DNA of 64,000 nucleotides from Streptosporangium amethystogenes. Its GTDB lineage: Bacteria > Actinomycetota > Actinomycetes > Streptosporangiales > Streptosporangiaceae. Numbering within the stretch: the first letter of the stretch is position 1; each line of letters begins with the position of its first letter. Below, piece by piece: positions 21,336 through 29,056 of this stretch. The stretch spans positions 27,166-91,165 of the forward strand of contig NZ_JOEQ01000045.1 in the NCBI RefSeq assembly GCF_000721075.1, read 5' to 3'. Under the pieces are notes generated by a model that did not search any database, was not told the origin of the DNA, and saw only the letters and a program-made list of their open reading frames with translations. Both the position numbers and the translations under genes were made by a program.

Positions 21336-23117
21336 ATGCGAGTGCACTATCCCCGCACCCCTCACCTGCCCTGGTCTCCCGGGGCCACTTCGGACGACGT
21401 ACGCGCCGACGGCCTGTCGGGGCTGGCCGGCCGGGAGGTCGTCGTCACCGAGAAGCTCGACGGGGAGAACACCACCGTGTACCCCGACGGGGTGCACGCC
21501 CGTTCGCTGGATTCGGCACACCATCCGTCCCGCGCGTGGGTCAAGGCCCTGCAGGGCAGGATCGCCCAACTCCTCCCACCGGGCCGACGGATATGCGGTG
21601 AGAACCTCTACGCCCGGCACTCGATCGAGTACCGGGACCTGGAGAGCTGGTTCTACGCCTTCTCCGTCTGGGACGGTGACCACTGCCTCGACTGGGACAG
21701 GACGGTGCGCCTGACCCGGCGGCTGGGGATCCCGGTTCCGCCGGTGCTGTGGCGCGGCACCTTCGACGAGCGGGCGCTACGGGCCCTGCGCCTGGACACG
21801 GCGCGGCGGGAAGGGTACGTCGTGCGAACGACCGCCGGATTCCACCGGCAGGAGTTCGCCCACCGCATCGCCAAATGGGTGCGCCCACGGCATGTCCGGA
21901 CGACCGAGCACTGGATGCTCGCTCCTGTCGTCGAGAACGGCCTGGGACCGGCCGCCGCACTGTGGGGGGTGCGTTCAGGAGCCGATCCGGACGTGCCGAC
22001 GCTCATCGCGGCGACGGGCATGACGGGGATGACGGCCGGTGACCCGGCGGGGCAGGCGATCCCGGTAGCCGCCGCCGAGCGCGTCGAGGCAGCCGTGGCC
22101 GACGTCTCCGCCAGGCTCGATCTGCTCGGCCGGGCGGGGGACGCCCGGCTGGCGGGCGTCCTGGCCACCCTGTTCCACGGCACGCGCCGGACCTGGCTGG
22201 CGTCCGCCCTGGTGGCTCCCCTCGGCATGCCCCTGGCCCGACGGGTCGCCGACCTGGCCGAGCTGAGCACCCGCCTGCACCGCCCCTTTCCCGACGAGGA
22301 GCGCAGGACCGGTCTGGTACGGCTGACGGCCGCGGCCGACCTGGGGGTCCTGCACGCGGTCGCCGCCGCGGCCCTGACCGGGCGCGCCGGCGATGAGGCC
22401 GCCGACGCGCGCGAGCAGGTCGGCTGGTCCGAGCTCCACGCCGAGGAGGCCGGGCTGCTGGGCGAGGCGCCGCTGGAGCCGCTGCGCCTGGGCCTGCGTC
22501 AGGCGCTCGACGGGTGTGATCCCGACGTGGCGGACCGGTGCTGGGCCGAGACGCGGGAGTCCTACGCGCTGGGCCGGATCGCCACGGCCGAGGGGGGCCT
22601 GGCGCTGAGCGGGCGCTGGCGGTCCGGCCGGTTTCCCCGGCTCGTCGTGATGGTCGGCCCGTCGGGCAGCGGGAAGAGCACGTTCGCCGGCGGCCTGCCG
22701 GAGGCCGGGGCCGTCGTCGCGCTCGACGACCTGCGCCAGGCCCGGGGGGCCCGGTCCGACCAGCGGGCCAACCCGGCGATCCTCCGCGAGGGCCTGCACC
22801 GGCTCGACGCGCTCCTGGCCGACGGCGGAACCGTGGTGTGGGACGCCACGGCGCTGAACCGGCACCAGCGCTCCCTGGTGCACACCGTGGCCCGCGGGCG
22901 CGACGCGCTGACGACGCAGGCGGTCATGCTGGTCCCCGGCGACGTGCTGGCCCGGCGTAACGTGGGCCGTGCGCACCCGGTGCCGCCGGAGGTGCTCTCC
23001 GCCCAGCTTCGCCGCTTCTCCCCGCCCTATCCGGGAGAGGCGCACCGTACGTGGTACATCGGGCCGGAGGGGAACGTCCTCGACGTCGCCGGGGCCCTCG
23101 ACGGCGATGAGGAATGA
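21336..23117 (+). CDS. RNA ligase fused to a polynucleotide kinase-like P-loop domain
   Basis: 593 residues. The N-terminal ligase domain (about 1-215) has motif I EKLDGENTT with nucleotidylated Lys 40, a motif III-like GENLYARHS, motif IV EGYVVRTT and motif V AKWVRP. A helical middle (about 220-430) follows. The C-terminal kinase (about 435-590) has Walker A GPSGSGKST at about 441, a DD(L) acidic pair in VVALDDLRQARG and WDATALNRHQR, as in T4 Pnk-like 5'-kinases. It should phosphorylate 5'-OH RNA ends and seal them. ATG 21336 gives the natural ligase start. The next gene begins right at its stop codon, so the two are translationally coupled. Confidence 0.88.
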   Translation: MRVHYPRTPHLPWSPGATSDDVRADGLSGLAGREVVVTEKLDGENTTVYPDGVHARSLDSAHHPSRAWVKALQGRIAQLLPPGRRICGENLYARHSIEYRDLESWFYAFSVWDGDHCLDWDRTVRLTRRLGIPVPPVLWRGTFDERALRALRLDTARREGYVVRTTAGFHRQEFAHRIAKWVRPRHVRTTEHWMLAPVVENGLGPAAALWGVRSGADPDVPTLIAATGMTGMTAGDPAGQAIPVAAAERVEAAVADVSARLDLLGRAGDARLAGVLATLFHGTRRTWLASALVAPLGMPLARRVADLAELSTRLHRPFPDEERRTGLVRLTAAADLGVLHAVAAAALTGRAGDEAADAREQVGWSELHAEEAGLLGEAPLEPLRLGLRQALDGCDPDVADRCWAETRESYALGRIATAEGGLALSGRWRSGRFPRLVVMVGPSGSGKSTFAGGLPEAGAVVALDDLRQARGARSDQRANPAILREGLHRLDALLADGGTVVWDATALNRHQRSLVHTVARGRDALTTQAVMLVPGDVLARRNVGRAHPVPPEVLSAQLRRFSPPYPGEAHRTWYIGPEGNVLDVAGALDGDEE

Positions 23118-23119
23118 TC

Positions 23120-26056
23120 ATGCGGACGAGCGAGGAGATCTTCCACCGGATTTGCTGGGATCCGCGGTTCGACCCGGCGCGGTTCGTCCTGGGCATCAAC
23201 GTGCGCGGGGCCTCGCCCAAGCGCGTGCCACTGCCCGCGTTCGTACCGGGAGGCGATATCCCGTGGCACCGGATCCTGTTCGTCGAGGCCGACGGCGAGA
23301 CGGTCTGGGACCGGTCGGCGGGCCTGGACCGCATCGACTCCTCGCAGGCCGGCCGGGTACGGGATCCGCGCAGGCTCCGGGCGCCGTTCTTCGCGGCCAG
23401 GACACCGTTCGGGTGGGATCCGGTCGCGGGCTGGCGTCCCGTGCCCCCCGTGCCGGCCGGGGCCGCGCCCACGACGGCACACCTGCGCGTGCTGACCTGG
23501 AACACCCTGTGGGATCGCTACGACAGCGACCGGCTGGACACCGCGCGGCGCCGGCGGCTGCTGCTGGAGGAGCTGGAGCGGGCCGACGCGGACGTCATCG
23601 CGCTGCAGGAGGTGGAGGCCGAGCTGCTCGGCATGCTGCTGCGGACCCCGTGGATCCGCTCCGGTTACACGCTGAGCACCGACCCGGCCGGCCAGAGCGT
23701 CGACGACGCCGGGCTCCTCCTGCTGAGCCGCCTGCCCGTTCGAGAGGCGGGCCTGCACGTTCTCGGCCCGCACAAGGCCGTCGCGGCCGTCACGGTGGAG
23801 TCCGCCGCCGGGCCGGTCGTGGTGGCCGCCACGCATCTGACCAGCGACCACACCGACGACGGCCCCGCCCGGCGCGAGGCCGAGCTCGCCCGGCTCGCCG
23901 AGGTGCTGCTCGGCGTGGACGGGGATGTGATCCTTCTGGGCGATCTCAACGACGGCGGGGGCCGGCCCGCCGAGGTGCTGGGCCTGCGAGACGCCTGGAT
24001 CGAGGCCCACGGCCCCGATGATGCGACCGCCACCTTCGATCCGCGGGTCAATCCGCTGGCGGCCCTCTCCTCGCTCTCCGGCCGCGCCTCCCGGCTCGAC
24101 CGCGTCCTGCTGCGCGGCCACGACCTGCGCGTCACGACCGCGGCCGTACGGGGTGACGTTCCGACGCCGGACGGCCTGTTCGTGTCGGACCACTACGCCG
24201 TCGCCGCCGACGTCACCATCGGCGGAAGCGTCTCCGGCGTCTCCGGCGTCCTCGACGCGCGCCCGACGGCACGGACCGCGCTGGCCTGGATCCCGCCACG
24301 GGAACTCTGGCCGGCGATCCAGGAGATCCGCCGGGAGCACGATCCTCAGATCCACAGGTGGCCACCGCACGTCACGGTGATGTTCGGTTTCGTACCGGAG
24401 GCCGACTTCGAGGAGGCGGCCCCTCTCCTGTCCGCCGCCGCGGCCGCGATCCCCCCGTTCACCGCCCGGTTGGAGGGCGTGCACGTCTTCTCCCATCGTG
24501 ACGGCTCCACGGTCTGGCTCGACCCGGCCGCGGACGGAGCCGAACCGTGGGCCGCGCTGCGCGGCGTGCTGGAGCGCGGGTTCCCGCGTTGCCGGGGCCG
24601 CTCCGAGGGCTACACCCCGCACCTGACCCTGGGAAGGGTCCGGGATCCCGAACGGCTGGTCGCCAACTGCGCGGCACGGCTGGGCGGCGGGTCGGTGCGG
24701 GTCGGCGAACTGGTCCTGCTGTCACGCCGGGGTGCGGAGCCCATGCGGCCCCGGGCGACCGTCGCCCTCGGAACGGGCGAGGTGCGCTGGCTCGACCACG
24801 GGACACCCGCGCCAGACGCCCAGCCGGACCCGGCGCGCACCCCCCGGGACGCCCCGGGATCGGGAAAGGACGGCGCCCGCGCGGAGGACGGCTCCGAGGC
24901 GCGGGAGCGTCACGGCGACGCCGTGGCACGGGAGGTCGTGGCGCGGCTGCGGGTCTCGCTGGCCGAGGGGGTCGTGCACGTCGCCGGGTCGCGACGCCTG
25001 GGCTGCGCCCTGGCCGACGCGGACCTGGACCTGGTGGTGGCGCTGCCCACGGCGGTCGCCCTCGCGGACGTCGAGGCGCGGGTGCGGGCGGCACTGCCGG
25101 AGGCGACCGGGCTGCGGAGTGTGATCGGCGCCAGGGTGCCCGGCCTCCGGTGGCGGATCGACGGCCTGAACGTCGATCTGGCCGTCGTGGCGGTCACCGG
25201 CGTCACCCCCGCCGAGGCGGTGTCGCGCCGTACGGAGCTGGACGAGGCCTCAGCGATCGCATTGAGCTCGGTCAGCGACGCCGACGCCGTGCTCGCCGCG
25301 GTCGGTGCGAACCACGCCGCCTTCGCCGGGCTGGCCCGGGAGGTGAAGGCATGGGCGAGGGCGCACGGGCTGGACTCGGCCCCGTTCGGCGGGTTGCCGG
25401 GCCTGGCCTGGACCATCCTCGCGGCGCTGACGGTGTGCGAATCCGGGGATCTCCCTCCCGGCGACCTGCTCCGGCGCTTCTTCGCCACCTGGGCCGCGTG
25501 GGACTGGCGCCGGCCGGTCGGCCTGTGGCCGGGGGCACCGGACGGGCCGCCGGGCGGAGAGTCCGGTGCGGCCGTGTCGGTCATGACCCCCACGGCCCCC
25601 GTCCGCCTGTGCAGCGAACAGGTCGGCGCCGGCGGGCGGGATCTGCTGGCACAGGAGCTCTACACCGCCTGGGAGATCGTGGAGGAGGCGGCGCGGACCG
25701 GCCGGAGTCCCCGGGAGGAGTTGCTGTCGGCACCGTCGTCGCACCGGCGGCACGCCGCGTGGGCGGTGGTGACCGTACGGGACGAGCGGGCCGAGAGATT
25801 CGCCGTGACGCTGGGCCGCGTCCGGGGCCGGGTGCGTGCGCTGCTCACCTCCCTGGAACGCGCGGGAGTACGGGACGCGCACGCCTGGCCCAGGCCGTTC
25901 GAGGCCGGGCCGGGAATGGCCCGGTTCGCGATAGGGCTCGGCCGCACACCGCCGGACGCGGCCGCGCTGGCCGAGGCAGCCGGCCCGTGGGCGGCGGGCC
26001 TGCGCGGAGTCGACGTCGAGTGGGCGGAGGGCGGCGAGGTACCGACGCTTTGCTGA
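23120..26056 (+). CDS. Four-domain RNA end-processing protein: MJ1316 - EEP - 2H - PAP-like nucleotidyltransferase
   Basis: 978 residues. (1) About 1-75: MJ1316/DUF504-type domain (EEIFHRICW...IPWHRI), proposed to recognise cyclic RNA ends. (2) About 115-370: endonuclease/exonuclease/phosphatase fold with LTWNTLW, ALQEVE, THLTSDH, LGDLND and VSDHYAV. (3) About 385-555: 2H phosphoesterase with both HxT motifs, HVTVMF (about 415) and HLTLGR (about 500). (4) About 590-975: poly(A)-polymerase/tRNA-nucleotidyltransferase-like, with GSRRLGCALADADLDL (about 622) and a third acid in NVDLAVV, then a PAP-type helical end. It could open 2',3'-cyclic phosphates, trim and rebuild 3' ends before ligation by its neighbour. 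ATG 23120 has GAGGA six bases upstream; ATG 23114 overlaps the ligase stop (ATGA). Confidence 0.88.
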   Translation: MRTSEEIFHRICWDPRFDPARFVLGINVRGASPKRVPLPAFVPGGDIPWHRILFVEADGETVWDRSAGLDRIDSSQAGRVRDPRRLRAPFFAARTPFGWDPVAGWRPVPPVPAGAAPTTAHLRVLTWNTLWDRYDSDRLDTARRRRLLLEELERADADVIALQEVEAELLGMLLRTPWIRSGYTLSTDPAGQSVDDAGLLLLSRLPVREAGLHVLGPHKAVAAVTVESAAGPVVVAATHLTSDHTDDGPARREAELARLAEVLLGVDGDVILLGDLNDGGGRPAEVLGLRDAWIEAHGPDDATATFDPRVNPLAALSSLSGRASRLDRVLLRGHDLRVTTAAVRGDVPTPDGLFVSDHYAVAADVTIGGSVSGVSGVLDARPTARTALAWIPPRELWPAIQEIRREHDPQIHRWPPHVTVMFGFVPEADFEEAAPLLSAAAAAIPPFTARLEGVHVFSHRDGSTVWLDPAADGAEPWAALRGVLERGFPRCRGRSEGYTPHLTLGRVRDPERLVANCAARLGGGSVRVGELVLLSRRGAEPMRPRATVALGTGEVRWLDHGTPAPDAQPDPARTPRDAPGSGKDGARAEDGSEARERHGDAVAREVVARLRVSLAEGVVHVAGSRRLGCALADADLDLVVALPTAVALADVEARVRAALPEATGLRSVIGARVPGLRWRIDGLNVDLAVVAVTGVTPAEAVSRRTELDEASAIALSSVSDADAVLAAVGANHAAFAGLAREVKAWARAHGLDSAPFGGLPGLAWTILAALTVCESGDLPPGDLLRRFFATWAAWDWRRPVGLWPGAPDGPPGGESGAAVSVMTPTAPVRLCSEQVGAGGRDLLAQELYTAWEIVEEAARTGRSPREELLSAPSSHRRHAAWAVVTVRDERAERFAVTLGRVRGRVRALLTSLERAGVRDAHAWPRPFEAGPGMARFAIGLGRTPPDAAALAEAAGPWAAGLRGVDVEWAEGGEVPTLC

Positions 26057-27010: not shown

Positions 27011-27967
27011 CTATTTGAATTTCCACCCGGGCGGGAAGATGACCGAGCGCAGGCCGTGCCCGGTGATTTTGGTCATCCACTCCTCGTCCGTGGGCATAAC
27101 CTTGCCGTTGTCGTCCAACAGGTTGTAGGTGGGGGTGAAGCCGGCGCCCGAGCCGAACAGGCGTGCGCCCAGCTCGATGCCGCGAGTGGTCGGCGCACTG
27201 CCAAGGGGTACCTTGGCCAGGTCGTAGGCGAGGACGTACGCGCCGTTCGCTCCAACGATCTTGCCGAACTCGGCGGCGTTCTCCTTCCCCGACCCCGTCG
27301 GCTGGTCGTTGCCGAGCTGGACGAGCTTGGTCAGTCCCATCGGCCCGGCCGCGTAGGCCGCGCCGTCCACCGCCATGTAGAGAAGCGTGGTCATGGCGTA
27401 CTTCGGCACGGCCATCGCCATGATTCTCGCCGCGTTCATGGCGAAGGCGGTCTGCAGGCCTCTCGCCGCCGCGGCCAGTGCGGCGATCCGCGCGGCGGCG
27501 AACCCGTAGAGGGCGGTCGTCATCGGCTGGAACGCCACGAGCCACACGATCTGCAAGATCAGATCTTCGTAAACGGCGAAGCCCTTTTTGACCTCCTCGA
27601 TCTGTTCCGCGTACGCCTCGCAGCCGATGGCCACGATGCGGCAGTCCTTGGCGAGCTGTGGCACGTAGACGGACACGGCGTCCTGATAGACGCGGCGGAA
27701 CGCCTCGATACTCCGACCCTCGCTGCCCTGGTCTTCGCTCCCCGAGTTCTTCCACACCGAGACGGCCAGCGCGTCGGCCTGATCCGCGATGCCGTCCTTC
27801 CCGCTTCCGCCGTCGATCTCGTCGGCCAGCCGGAAGAAGACCTTCGCGATCTCCCGCAGCTTGTCGGGGGGGATCTCGGGAGCCGTGACGCCGGCGTAGA
27901 TCTTCAGCGCGGCCATGGAGCCCAACCCGGTGAGACCGACCATGGCAAGAGCCTTCGTCGGGATCAT
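27011..27967 (-). CDS. ESX/WXG100-associated membrane protein of unknown function (CpnT N-terminal-domain-like)
   Basis: 318 residues with an N-terminal hydrophobic segment (about 6-25), a helical WXG-like part (PDKLREIAKVFFRLADEIDG) and hydrophobic helices around 140-235 (IVWLVAFQPMTTALYGFAAARIAALAAAARG). The C-terminus is polar. The layout recalls N-terminal domains of type VII-secreted polymorphic toxins and channel proteins, but no toxin domain follows. ATG 27967 overlaps the upstream gene by ATGA. Confidence 0.55.
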   Translation of the reverse strand: MIPTKALAMVGLTGLGSMAALKIYAGVTAPEIPPDKLREIAKVFFRLADEIDGGSGKDGIADQADALAVSVWKNSGSEDQGSEGRSIEAFRRVYQDAVSVYVPQLAKDCRIVAIGCEAYAEQIEEVKKGFAVYEDLILQIVWLVAFQPMTTALYGFAAARIAALAAAARGLQTAFAMNAARIMAMAVPKYAMTTLLYMAVDGAAYAAGPMGLTKLVQLGNDQPTGSGKENAAEFGKIVGANGAYVLAYDLAKVPLGSAPTTRGIELGARLFGSGAGFTPTYNLLDDNGKVMPTDEEWMTKITGHGLRSVIFPPGWKFK

Positions 27968-28308
27968 GGTTCGGCCCGCTTCACCGGGCCGTCGTCGGTG
28001 TAGTCCGGCACCGCGTCCAGGCTCTTCGCCAAGCCCCAGTCGATGTCCAACATATTGCGGCTCATCGCGATCAGCCCTTTTCCGATGTCGCCGTAAGCGC
28101 CGGCGAGGTCGGCCGTCAGTGTCAGCATCTGTTCGTATTTGGGGGTGAACCATTCGAGAAACCGCTGATCCACCTCCTCCCCACTCGGCAGGGGACCGAT
28201 GGCCTGTAAGTCCTCAAGGGCACGTTTGACCACGGCGCCAAGATCACTGCTGACATCGGCAAAGCCGAGCCCCGCCTGATTCTGCAGTTGGTCGTGGTCG
28301 TAAGCCAT
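27964..28308 (-). CDS. Small WXG100-like ESX protein
   Basis: 114 residues, acidic and helical, no signal peptide. It carries a WF motif (QRFLEWFTPKYEQM) between two helices, as in WXG100-like ESX partners. ATG 28308 is preferred over an upstream in-frame start that adds a Cys-containing non-helical tail. It is the first gene of the trio ending at 26610. Confidence 0.55.
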   Translation of the reverse strand: MAYDHDQLQNQAGLGFADVSSDLGAVVKRALEDLQAIGPLPSGEEVDQRFLEWFTPKYEQMLTLTADLAGAYGDIGKGLIAMSRNMLDIDWGLAKSLDAVPDYTDDGPVKRAEP

Positions 28309-28721: not shown

Positions 28722-28811
28722 ATGAGATTTCATAACGTACAGGCACGCCGAAAGGAGGTGGTCCGAACAATGGTTGATCATAGTTGGGCTAGCGAGGTGG
28801 CTGTCCGCTAG
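28722..28811 (+). CDS. Possible 13- to 29-residue peptide with a near-perfect Shine-Dalgarno
   Basis: AAAGGAGGTGGTCC (28751-28764) is complementary, with one G-U, to the whole 16S anti-Shine-Dalgarno. Nine bases after the GGAGG region ATG 28770 opens MVDHSWASEVAVR, stopping at TAG 28809. An in-frame ATG 28722 would extend it to 29 residues (MRFHNVQARRKEVVRT...). A hairpin follows at once. No gene on the same strand follows for 2.7 kb, so this is not an obvious leader. It could be a stand-alone small protein or a structured RNA. Confidence 0.4.
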   Translation: MRFHNVQARRKEVVRTMVDHSWASEVAVR

Positions 28812-28841
28812 GACGCCGCGACCGGACTCTGTCCGGGCGTC
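28812..28841 (+). terminator. Hairpin directly after the minigene
   Basis: CCGGAC (28822-28827), loop TCT and GTCCGG (28831-28836) form the tip. GACGC (28812-28816) and GCGTC (28837-28841) extend it across a five-base bulge. It would end a short transcript of the minigene. Confidence 0.5.
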
Positions 28842-29056
28842 TGGCGACGTTCGGCGAATCCACGACAATCACCGGAACCCCGGGCCGCCGGGGGCGGGAA
28901 ATCCCGCCTTTGGTCCACCGGCCCTCCTGCTCGGCCAGGAGGAAATGGCCCGGGGTTCTTCCCTTTCCGGCACTCTTCTCTCCAGGCCCTCCCCTCCCGG
29001 GCCGAGACGCGCCTTTTCTCGTACGCCTCCCGCCAGGCCCCCCGAGGGGCCTGAGG

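Follow-up and report, generated by a model that had tools for sequence, protein, structure and literature searches.

Two adjoining genes lie on the forward strand of a stretch of 64,000 nucleotides from the actinomycete Streptosporangium amethystogenes, referred to here as the window, and their products together carry the predicted parts of an RNA repair system (Table 1). The genome, 9.44 Mb in size, holds a single MJ1316 match, that of gene 2. Relatives of both genes are numerous: 7995 scored candidates yielded 1354 homologues of gene 1 and 1222 of gene 2 at E ≤ 0.001, and the gene 2 of S. amethystogenes subsp. fukuiense is 93% identical to that of the window. Downstream of the pair, with a Fur-family gene in between, a WXG100-like protein is encoded at 27014-28153 (PF25547, E 2.5e-7), and positions 28745-28965 match the actinobacterial sRNA Ms_IGR-5 (67.5 bits against a gathering threshold of 45).

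Table 1. Genes and domains of the pair; positions refer to the window and residues to the encoded protein.
Feature	Position	Strand	Description
Gene 1	21336..23117	+	RNA ligase, pseudo-HD, 5'-OH polynucleotide kinase; 593 aa, ATG at 21336
DRB0100-type ATP-dependent ligase domain	21336..21947	+	residues 1-204; PF09414 RNA_ligase at 33-182, E 1.3e-35
Degenerate HD phosphohydrolase domain (putative)	21918..22619	+	residues 195-428; hhalign against the HD part of HD-Pnk; metal-binding residues mostly lost
5'-OH polynucleotide kinase domain	22632..23090	+	residues 433-585; AAA_33 at 436-564, E 6.6e-20
Gene 2	23114..26056	+	MJ1316, EEP, 2H, poly(A) polymerase; 980 aa; start probably 23120
MJ1316 domain	23120..23314	+	PF04457 at residues 3-67, E 1.7e-16, 61.1 bits against a cut-off of 26.3; predicted recognition of 2',3'-cyclic ends
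EEP phosphoesterase, TDP2-like	23474..24226	+	residues 121-371; PF03372 at 127-360, E 4.9e-21
2H phosphoesterase, LigT type	24293..24733	+	residues 394-540; PF13563, E 7e-35
Canonical eukaryotic-type poly(A) polymerase module	24890..26047	+	residues 593-978, through the C-terminal RNA-binding domain of the eukaryotic enzyme; PAP_central at 740-860, E 8.1e-8

A sequence-only reading of the same DNA had listed all of these domains in this order, and that part of it stands; two details change. The middle of protein 1, described there as helical, is better read as a degenerate HD domain, and gene 2 probably starts at 23120 and not at 23114, since all 16 orthologues in alignment A1 begin MRTS, which places the start 2 nt past the gene 1 stop. 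The profile searches proposed in that reading gave six matches across the pair (RNA_ligase, AAA_33, MJ1316, EEP, 2H and PAP_central), all above the curated Pfam cut-offs, but left the nucleotidyltransferase palm below them (best PF20750, E 0.14).

The ligase domain of gene 1 shares 56% identity over 204 aa with Deinococcus radiodurans DR_RS15960, and its kinase domain 43.5% over 154 aa with the kinase of the same operon, DR_RS15950. The predicted active sites of both domains are preserved throughout the family. Ligase residues K40, D42, E159, G160 and K180 (motif I KxDG, motif IV EG, motif V K) and kinase residues G441, G446, K447, D464, W502, D503, A504, R541 and R545 (the P-loop and a WDAT-type motif) are invariant in 73 of 73 gene 1 rows, and the 15 ligase and kinase positions that were checked show no variation at all. 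The ligase is predicted to seal RNA with 3'-OH and 5'-phosphate ends. The structure predicted for protein 1 has a mean pLDDT of 84.7 and a pTM of 0.87; among the matches listed in a structure search with it, the rows cover the kinase and, in one case (1s68), the ligase.

The region between ligase and kinase has no Pfam match. In profile comparisons, however, the part of gene 1 past the ligase aligned over 380 columns with HD-Pnk in full (Prob 100, E 2.7e-42), and hhalign matched the middle by itself over 219 columns to the isolated HD part (Prob 96.6, E 5.1e-10 for a single comparison). The controls were far weaker: E 0.029 was the best value from 60 column shuffles, nothing better than E 0.34 came from aligning five other pieces of the pair to HD, and the gene 1 middle reached E 0.081 at best against other gene 2 pieces. 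The 25 HD-Pnk rows all keep H51, H81, D82 and D173 (D. radiodurans numbering). At the equivalent positions of the 73 gene 1 rows, H51 is never histidine and D173 never aspartate, D82 is aspartate in 10 and the HD doublet is kept in 8, so that the metal ligands H..HD..D fall short of those that mark HD-Pnk. Survival is partial, the H81 equivalent being histidine in 59 of 73 rows and that of H139 in 62 of 73, while the H138 equivalent is leucine in 71 of 73. On these sequence profiles we read the middle as retaining the HD fold but no longer working as an enzyme, and gene 1 as a whole appears to be a DRB0100-type ligase fused to an HD-kinase that has lost its HD metal site.

Conservation in gene 2 was followed in 190 rows, of which 188 are distinct in their letters; because database entries and named loci overlap, these represent fewer independent proteins, all of them near relatives. 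In the MJ1316 domain, W15, D16, D20, W51, H52 and E58 are invariant, with R18 varying in one row and E62 in two; a role for this domain as a reader of cyclic ends in RNA repair fusions is described in the accessible part of PMC6514570. The EEP catalytic set N130, E166, D277, N279, D329, D359 and H360 is present in 190 of 190 rows, as are the 2H histidines H419 and H503. Members of the 2H family are marked by two H-x-T/S motifs; here the first reads HxN in 161 rows, HxT in 28 and HxS in one, and the second HxT in 126 and HxS in 64. Widespread loss of catalytic residues, which the sequence-only reading had named as counting against it, was thus not found: they are invariant in the 73 rows of gene 1 and nearly so in the 190 of gene 2.

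The 2H domain itself is less constant. Of the 120 proteins listed, out of 121 matches, in a sequence search for standalone poly(A) polymerases, 10 carry MJ1316 and EEP with no 2H match; in three (P0308, P0329 and P0336) reading of the sequence found no 2H domain between EEP and polymerase, which suggests that the 2H step can at times be dispensed with or comes from another source. The genome of the window also encodes KptA. The EEP domain, the 2H domain and an outside enzyme such as KptA are all candidates for removal of the last phosphate, so the repair line that the sequence-only reading took to be complete may not be.

By both sequence and fold comparison, the best-ranked matches of the EEP domain are TDP2 enzymes, which are known from DNA-protein adducts. 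They favour a different reading of the pair, repair of DNA strand breaks or DNA-protein adducts, with the kinase, the TDP2-like phosphodiesterase and the ligase acting on DNA nicks. Such a role is argued against by a ligase that belongs to PF09414 RNA_ligase, and by the presence of MJ1316, 2H and poly(A) polymerase domains, which are RNA-directed families. The accessible text of PMC1997131 does place DRB0100 in an operon that gamma radiation induces and that is considered there in terms of DNA repair, and has the DRB0098 kinase act on a DNA oligonucleotide, and with all of this weighed we regard a DNA substrate as improbable and an RNA substrate as the better account.

The nucleotidyltransferase of gene 2 is, as judged from sequence and predicted fold, a whole canonical eukaryotic-type poly(A) polymerase, built like the human-cell enzyme: it has the PAP_central domain, the catalytic GS..DxD..D and a fold that continues through the C-terminal RNA-binding domain. 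The palm, missed by Pfam, is assigned securely because it matches solved poly(A) polymerases in both sequence and fold. The sequence-only reading had likened this domain to tRNA nucleotidyltransferases, a comparison that seems off the mark: the matches are canonical poly(A) polymerases, found at E 1e-36 to 1e-25, and the 18 PDB sequence matches at E ≤ 0.1 include no CCA enzyme. D637 is invariant in the 190 rows, D639 is aspartate in 184 and asparagine in 6, and D688 is aspartate in 188 and glycine in 2. The six D639N rows reduce by organism to four proteins: P0060/L042 (Streptomyces ISL-96), P0099/L055 (Streptomyces ISL-100), P0072 and P0120.

In the above-mentioned sequence search for standalone poly(A) polymerases, the 120 of 121 matches listed include no eukaryotic enzyme by name, and all those named are relatives or pieces of gene 2. 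One polymerase-only relative (P0277, 378 aa, 56% identity) is named from the myxobacterium Chondromyces apiculatus. A cyanobacterial relative of gene 2 with all four domains lies on the conjugative plasmid AP018209.1 of Calothrix brevissima (L124:8995-11970), and its PAP_central match (1.7e-29) is stronger than that of the window (8.1e-8).

Given a polymerase of the tailing type, and given that poly(A) tails promote RNA decay in bacteria, the pair might instead tag RNA for destruction: protein 2 would clean 3' ends and add A tails that mark the RNA for decay, leaving the ligase-kinase to rescue a minority. Tight coupling of gene 2 with the ligase-kinase argues against such a division. Among 200 genomes of the order, counted at E ≤ 1e-30 with that of the window included, 29 have both genes, 2 have gene 2 only, none has gene 1 only and 169 have neither, so that gene 2 is patchy, being present in 31 of 200. 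All 29 genomes with gene 1 also have gene 2, side by side by coordinates, although in G540 the pair is split over two contigs and G549 retains only the kinase end of gene 1. In a phylum-wide sample of 396 genomes, full-length gene 1 and gene 2 occur in the same 3 genomes, and one further genome (G205) has a relative of the gene 1 ligase alone (E 2.8e-38).

The same arrangement recurs at individual loci. Gene 1 sequence lies directly upstream of gene 2 in 78 of 80 named loci, which are the best 80 of 251 relatives and hence the closest ones; some of the 78 are cut by contig ends and one (L032) is kinase-only, and the two loci with none are L042 and L055. Where both frames were called (45 loci), the spacing to the MRTS-type start is -14 to +7 nt in 42 and 19 and 50 nt in two, and in one the frames are merged. 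For 42 full pairs, tree distances of the two genes correlate with r 0.87 (highest value in 999 permutations, 0.18), and 19 of 39 splits are common to both trees. These results support the conclusion that gene 1 and gene 2 travel as a unit. An absence of conserved pairing, which the sequence-only reading had held would tell against it, is contradicted by the 29, 2 and 0 genomes of the order sample and by 78 of 80 loci, and its central proposal of a coupled pair for RNA end healing and sealing is supported by the conserved pairing, the active sites and the domain content.

The neighbourhood of the pair was surveyed with genes from a home-made GC3 caller in flanks of at most 8 kb, often shorter. 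Ribosomal protein genes are the most frequent neighbours, L3 and L4 occurring in 17 of the 80 named loci each. These S10-operon genes sit on the opposite strand, upstream of the pair, with S10 called in 14 loci; EF-Tu was called in 8 and EF-G in 9, mostly downstream of the pair. The proximity to S10-operon genes in 17 of 80 loci lends something to the idea that the pair carries out programmed RNA processing, splicing or circularising a particular cellular RNA, to which the same chemistry would apply. We consider this very improbable, because a housekeeping step would hardly be so patchily distributed (31 of 200 genomes) or have a relative on a conjugative plasmid, and retain the reading of the pair as a repair system.

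A third conserved gene or a toxin beside the pair was looked for through the recurrence of neighbour families, and rejected: apart from ribosomal protein genes, no family among the top 40 occurs in more than 14 of the 80 loci. The link to ribotoxins drawn in the sequence-only reading accordingly finds no support in this count of neighbour families. A scan with a defence library gave weak matches only (best E 0.0033).

Phage records gave no match to gene 2, and in viral contigs 48 stretches fit the search pattern, none of them a gene 2 relative. A minimal DRB0100-type ligase, 33-52% identical to the gene 1 ligase, was found in 90 viral stretches, several on contigs of more than 300 kb. The 80 of these that were kept (L149-L228) have no gene 2 or pseudo-HD match in the flank; a kinase or HD-Pnk match is found there in 9 of 80, and the other 71 show none.

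Four copies of gene 2 occur in genomes that have no gene 1, two together with a separate ligase/HD-kinase cassette and two with a mutated polymerase site. The latter are those of Streptomyces ISL-96 (L042) and ISL-100 (L055), whose whole genomes gave neither a gene 1 nor an HD-Pnk match, and whose polymerases carry D639N in both and D688G in one. Both genomes do encode further kinase-domain proteins, in open frames of 873, 305 and 892 aa, that may be other repair enzymes. The former are the two orphans of the order sample, G508 and G539, which keep the polymerase site, with no change reported for their rows, and have an Rnl + HD-Pnk cassette elsewhere in each genome. Tailing independent of the ligase predicts the opposite of what the two Streptomyces genomes show, where gene 1 is absent and the polymerase site mutated, and the tag-and-destroy reading, already at odds with the coupling, is unlikely. 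The orphan pattern fits instead a polymerase that is useful only alongside a ligase-kinase, as the repair reading has it, in a comparison that covers very few lineages and is uncorrected for ancestry.

HD-Pnk in the order sample gave 49 matches, one of which is, by coordinates, the kinase of gene 1 itself (G458). It occurs in none of the 29 pair genomes, in both orphans and in 46 of the 169 genomes with neither gene. Pair genomes thus differ from those with neither (0/29 vs 46/169, Fisher p 0.0005) and orphans from pair genomes (2/2 vs 0/29, p 0.002), but the 48 HD-Pnk genomes, four of them represented only by short pieces, belong to three genera, so that the exclusion may reflect ancestry alone and the orphan comparison is equally weak. 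In 50 named genomes, covering 50 of the 80 loci (48 with the pair, 2 orphans), no HD-Pnk match was found at E ≤ 1e-15, the positive control for this count being only the same query in the order sample.

These observations suggest a model that we consider probable, in which the pair is a two-protein RNA repair system with labour divided by strand end. The MJ1316 domain of protein 2 would bind the 2',3'-cyclic phosphate end, its 2H domain would open the cyclic phosphate, the TDP2-like EEP domain would take off the phosphate left behind, and nucleotides would be added in place of lost ones by the poly(A) polymerase module. On the other side of the break, the kinase of protein 1 would phosphorylate the 5'-OH, and its DRB0100-type ligase would then join 3'-OH to 5'-phosphate. 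A dead HD domain in protein 1 would explain its need for protein 2. Seen directly are the domains with their folds and conserved active sites, the pairing, the lost HD site and the orphan patterns; it is from these that we infer what each enzyme does, which RNA it acts on (tRNA or another), in what order the steps run and what cuts the RNA.

In ligase/HD-kinase systems such as that of Runella HD-Pnk, the HD domain is reportedly taken to heal 3' ends. We raise, tentatively, the further possibility that 3' healing has passed from the now-dead HD domain to the partner protein, with a eukaryotic-type poly(A) polymerase serving as a gap-filling enzyme coupled to repair; by the same logic, DRB0100 might be inactive alone because it needs a 3'-end partner. 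The pair offers a compact and testable repair line that distributes its half-reactions over two proteins, together with natural experiments (the dead HD domain, the copies without gene 1) that hint at which half depends on which. It also presents a bacterial poly(A) polymerase, full and of canonical type, whose predicted role is repair, not tailing, and suggests a setting for the DRB0100 ligase family, for which ligation was not shown in the 2007 study (PMC1997131). By title or the start of the abstract, no biochemical study of the pair was found in the literature.

One of the closest known systems is the D. radiodurans operon DR_RS15960-DR_RS15955-DR_RS15950, which we equate, by operon and by K40, with DRB0100-DRB0099-DRB0098; DRB0100 is the closest ligase that has been assayed. 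Its ligase, HD and kinase content is that of gene 1, but there the genes are separate, with a macro/PARG gene between them, and the HD residues are intact, whereas gene 1 is fused and its HD site lost. Among the 17 annotated features listed for the locus, none is named MJ1316, EEP, 2H or polymerase, and the 8 plasmid records that match gene 2 include no Deinococcus record. In the accessible part of Blasius et al. 2007 (PMC1997131), DRB0100 is adenylated on K40 but shows no ligation of DNA or RNA, whether by itself or together with the other two proteins of the operon, and a missing extra protein is proposed. There DRB0098 is a 5' kinase whose 3'-phosphatase activity, possibly a contaminant, was kept in HD mutants, so that, as far as that text goes, the HD domain is not proven to be the 3' healer of that system (PMC1997131).

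The actinobacterial Rnl + HD-Pnk cassette (L117, L120) resembles gene 1 in setting a PF09414 ligase beside an HD-kinase. It differs in sequence (ligase 27-28%, kinase 29-32% identity), in its intact HD domain and in its distribution, being found in none of the 29 pair-bearing genomes of the order sample. Modular RNA repair systems that bring together a ligase, end-healing enzymes and a nucleotidyltransferase were reportedly described by Burroughs and Aravind in 2016. Systems of this modular kind had been predicted before, and that survey may already describe the pair; in the literature searched, nothing was found on the split of tasks between the two proteins, the decay of the HD domain, the identification of the poly(A) polymerase or the orphan patterns. 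The fungal tRNA ligase Trl1, like the pair, brings ligase, kinase and a 2H-type cyclic phosphodiesterase to one break, but does so as a single protein, with other ligase and kinase families and with neither EEP nor polymerase. Pnkp-Rnl-Hen1 systems have as hallmarks the Hen1 methyltransferase and a calcineurin-type phosphatase, neither of which Pfam finds in the pair at E ≤ 1. The Pnkp1-Rnl-Hen1 complex does share with the pair the combination of kinase and ligase, used there, according to the accessible part of PMC4411300, in the repair of ribotoxin-cut RNA. The repair systems of jumbo phages, as set out in the accessible text of PMC7824862, draw on ligases, kinases, phosphatases and 2H enzymes together with nucleotidyltransferases that put back lost nucleotides, the last of these being RlaP and not, as in the pair, a poly(A) polymerase.
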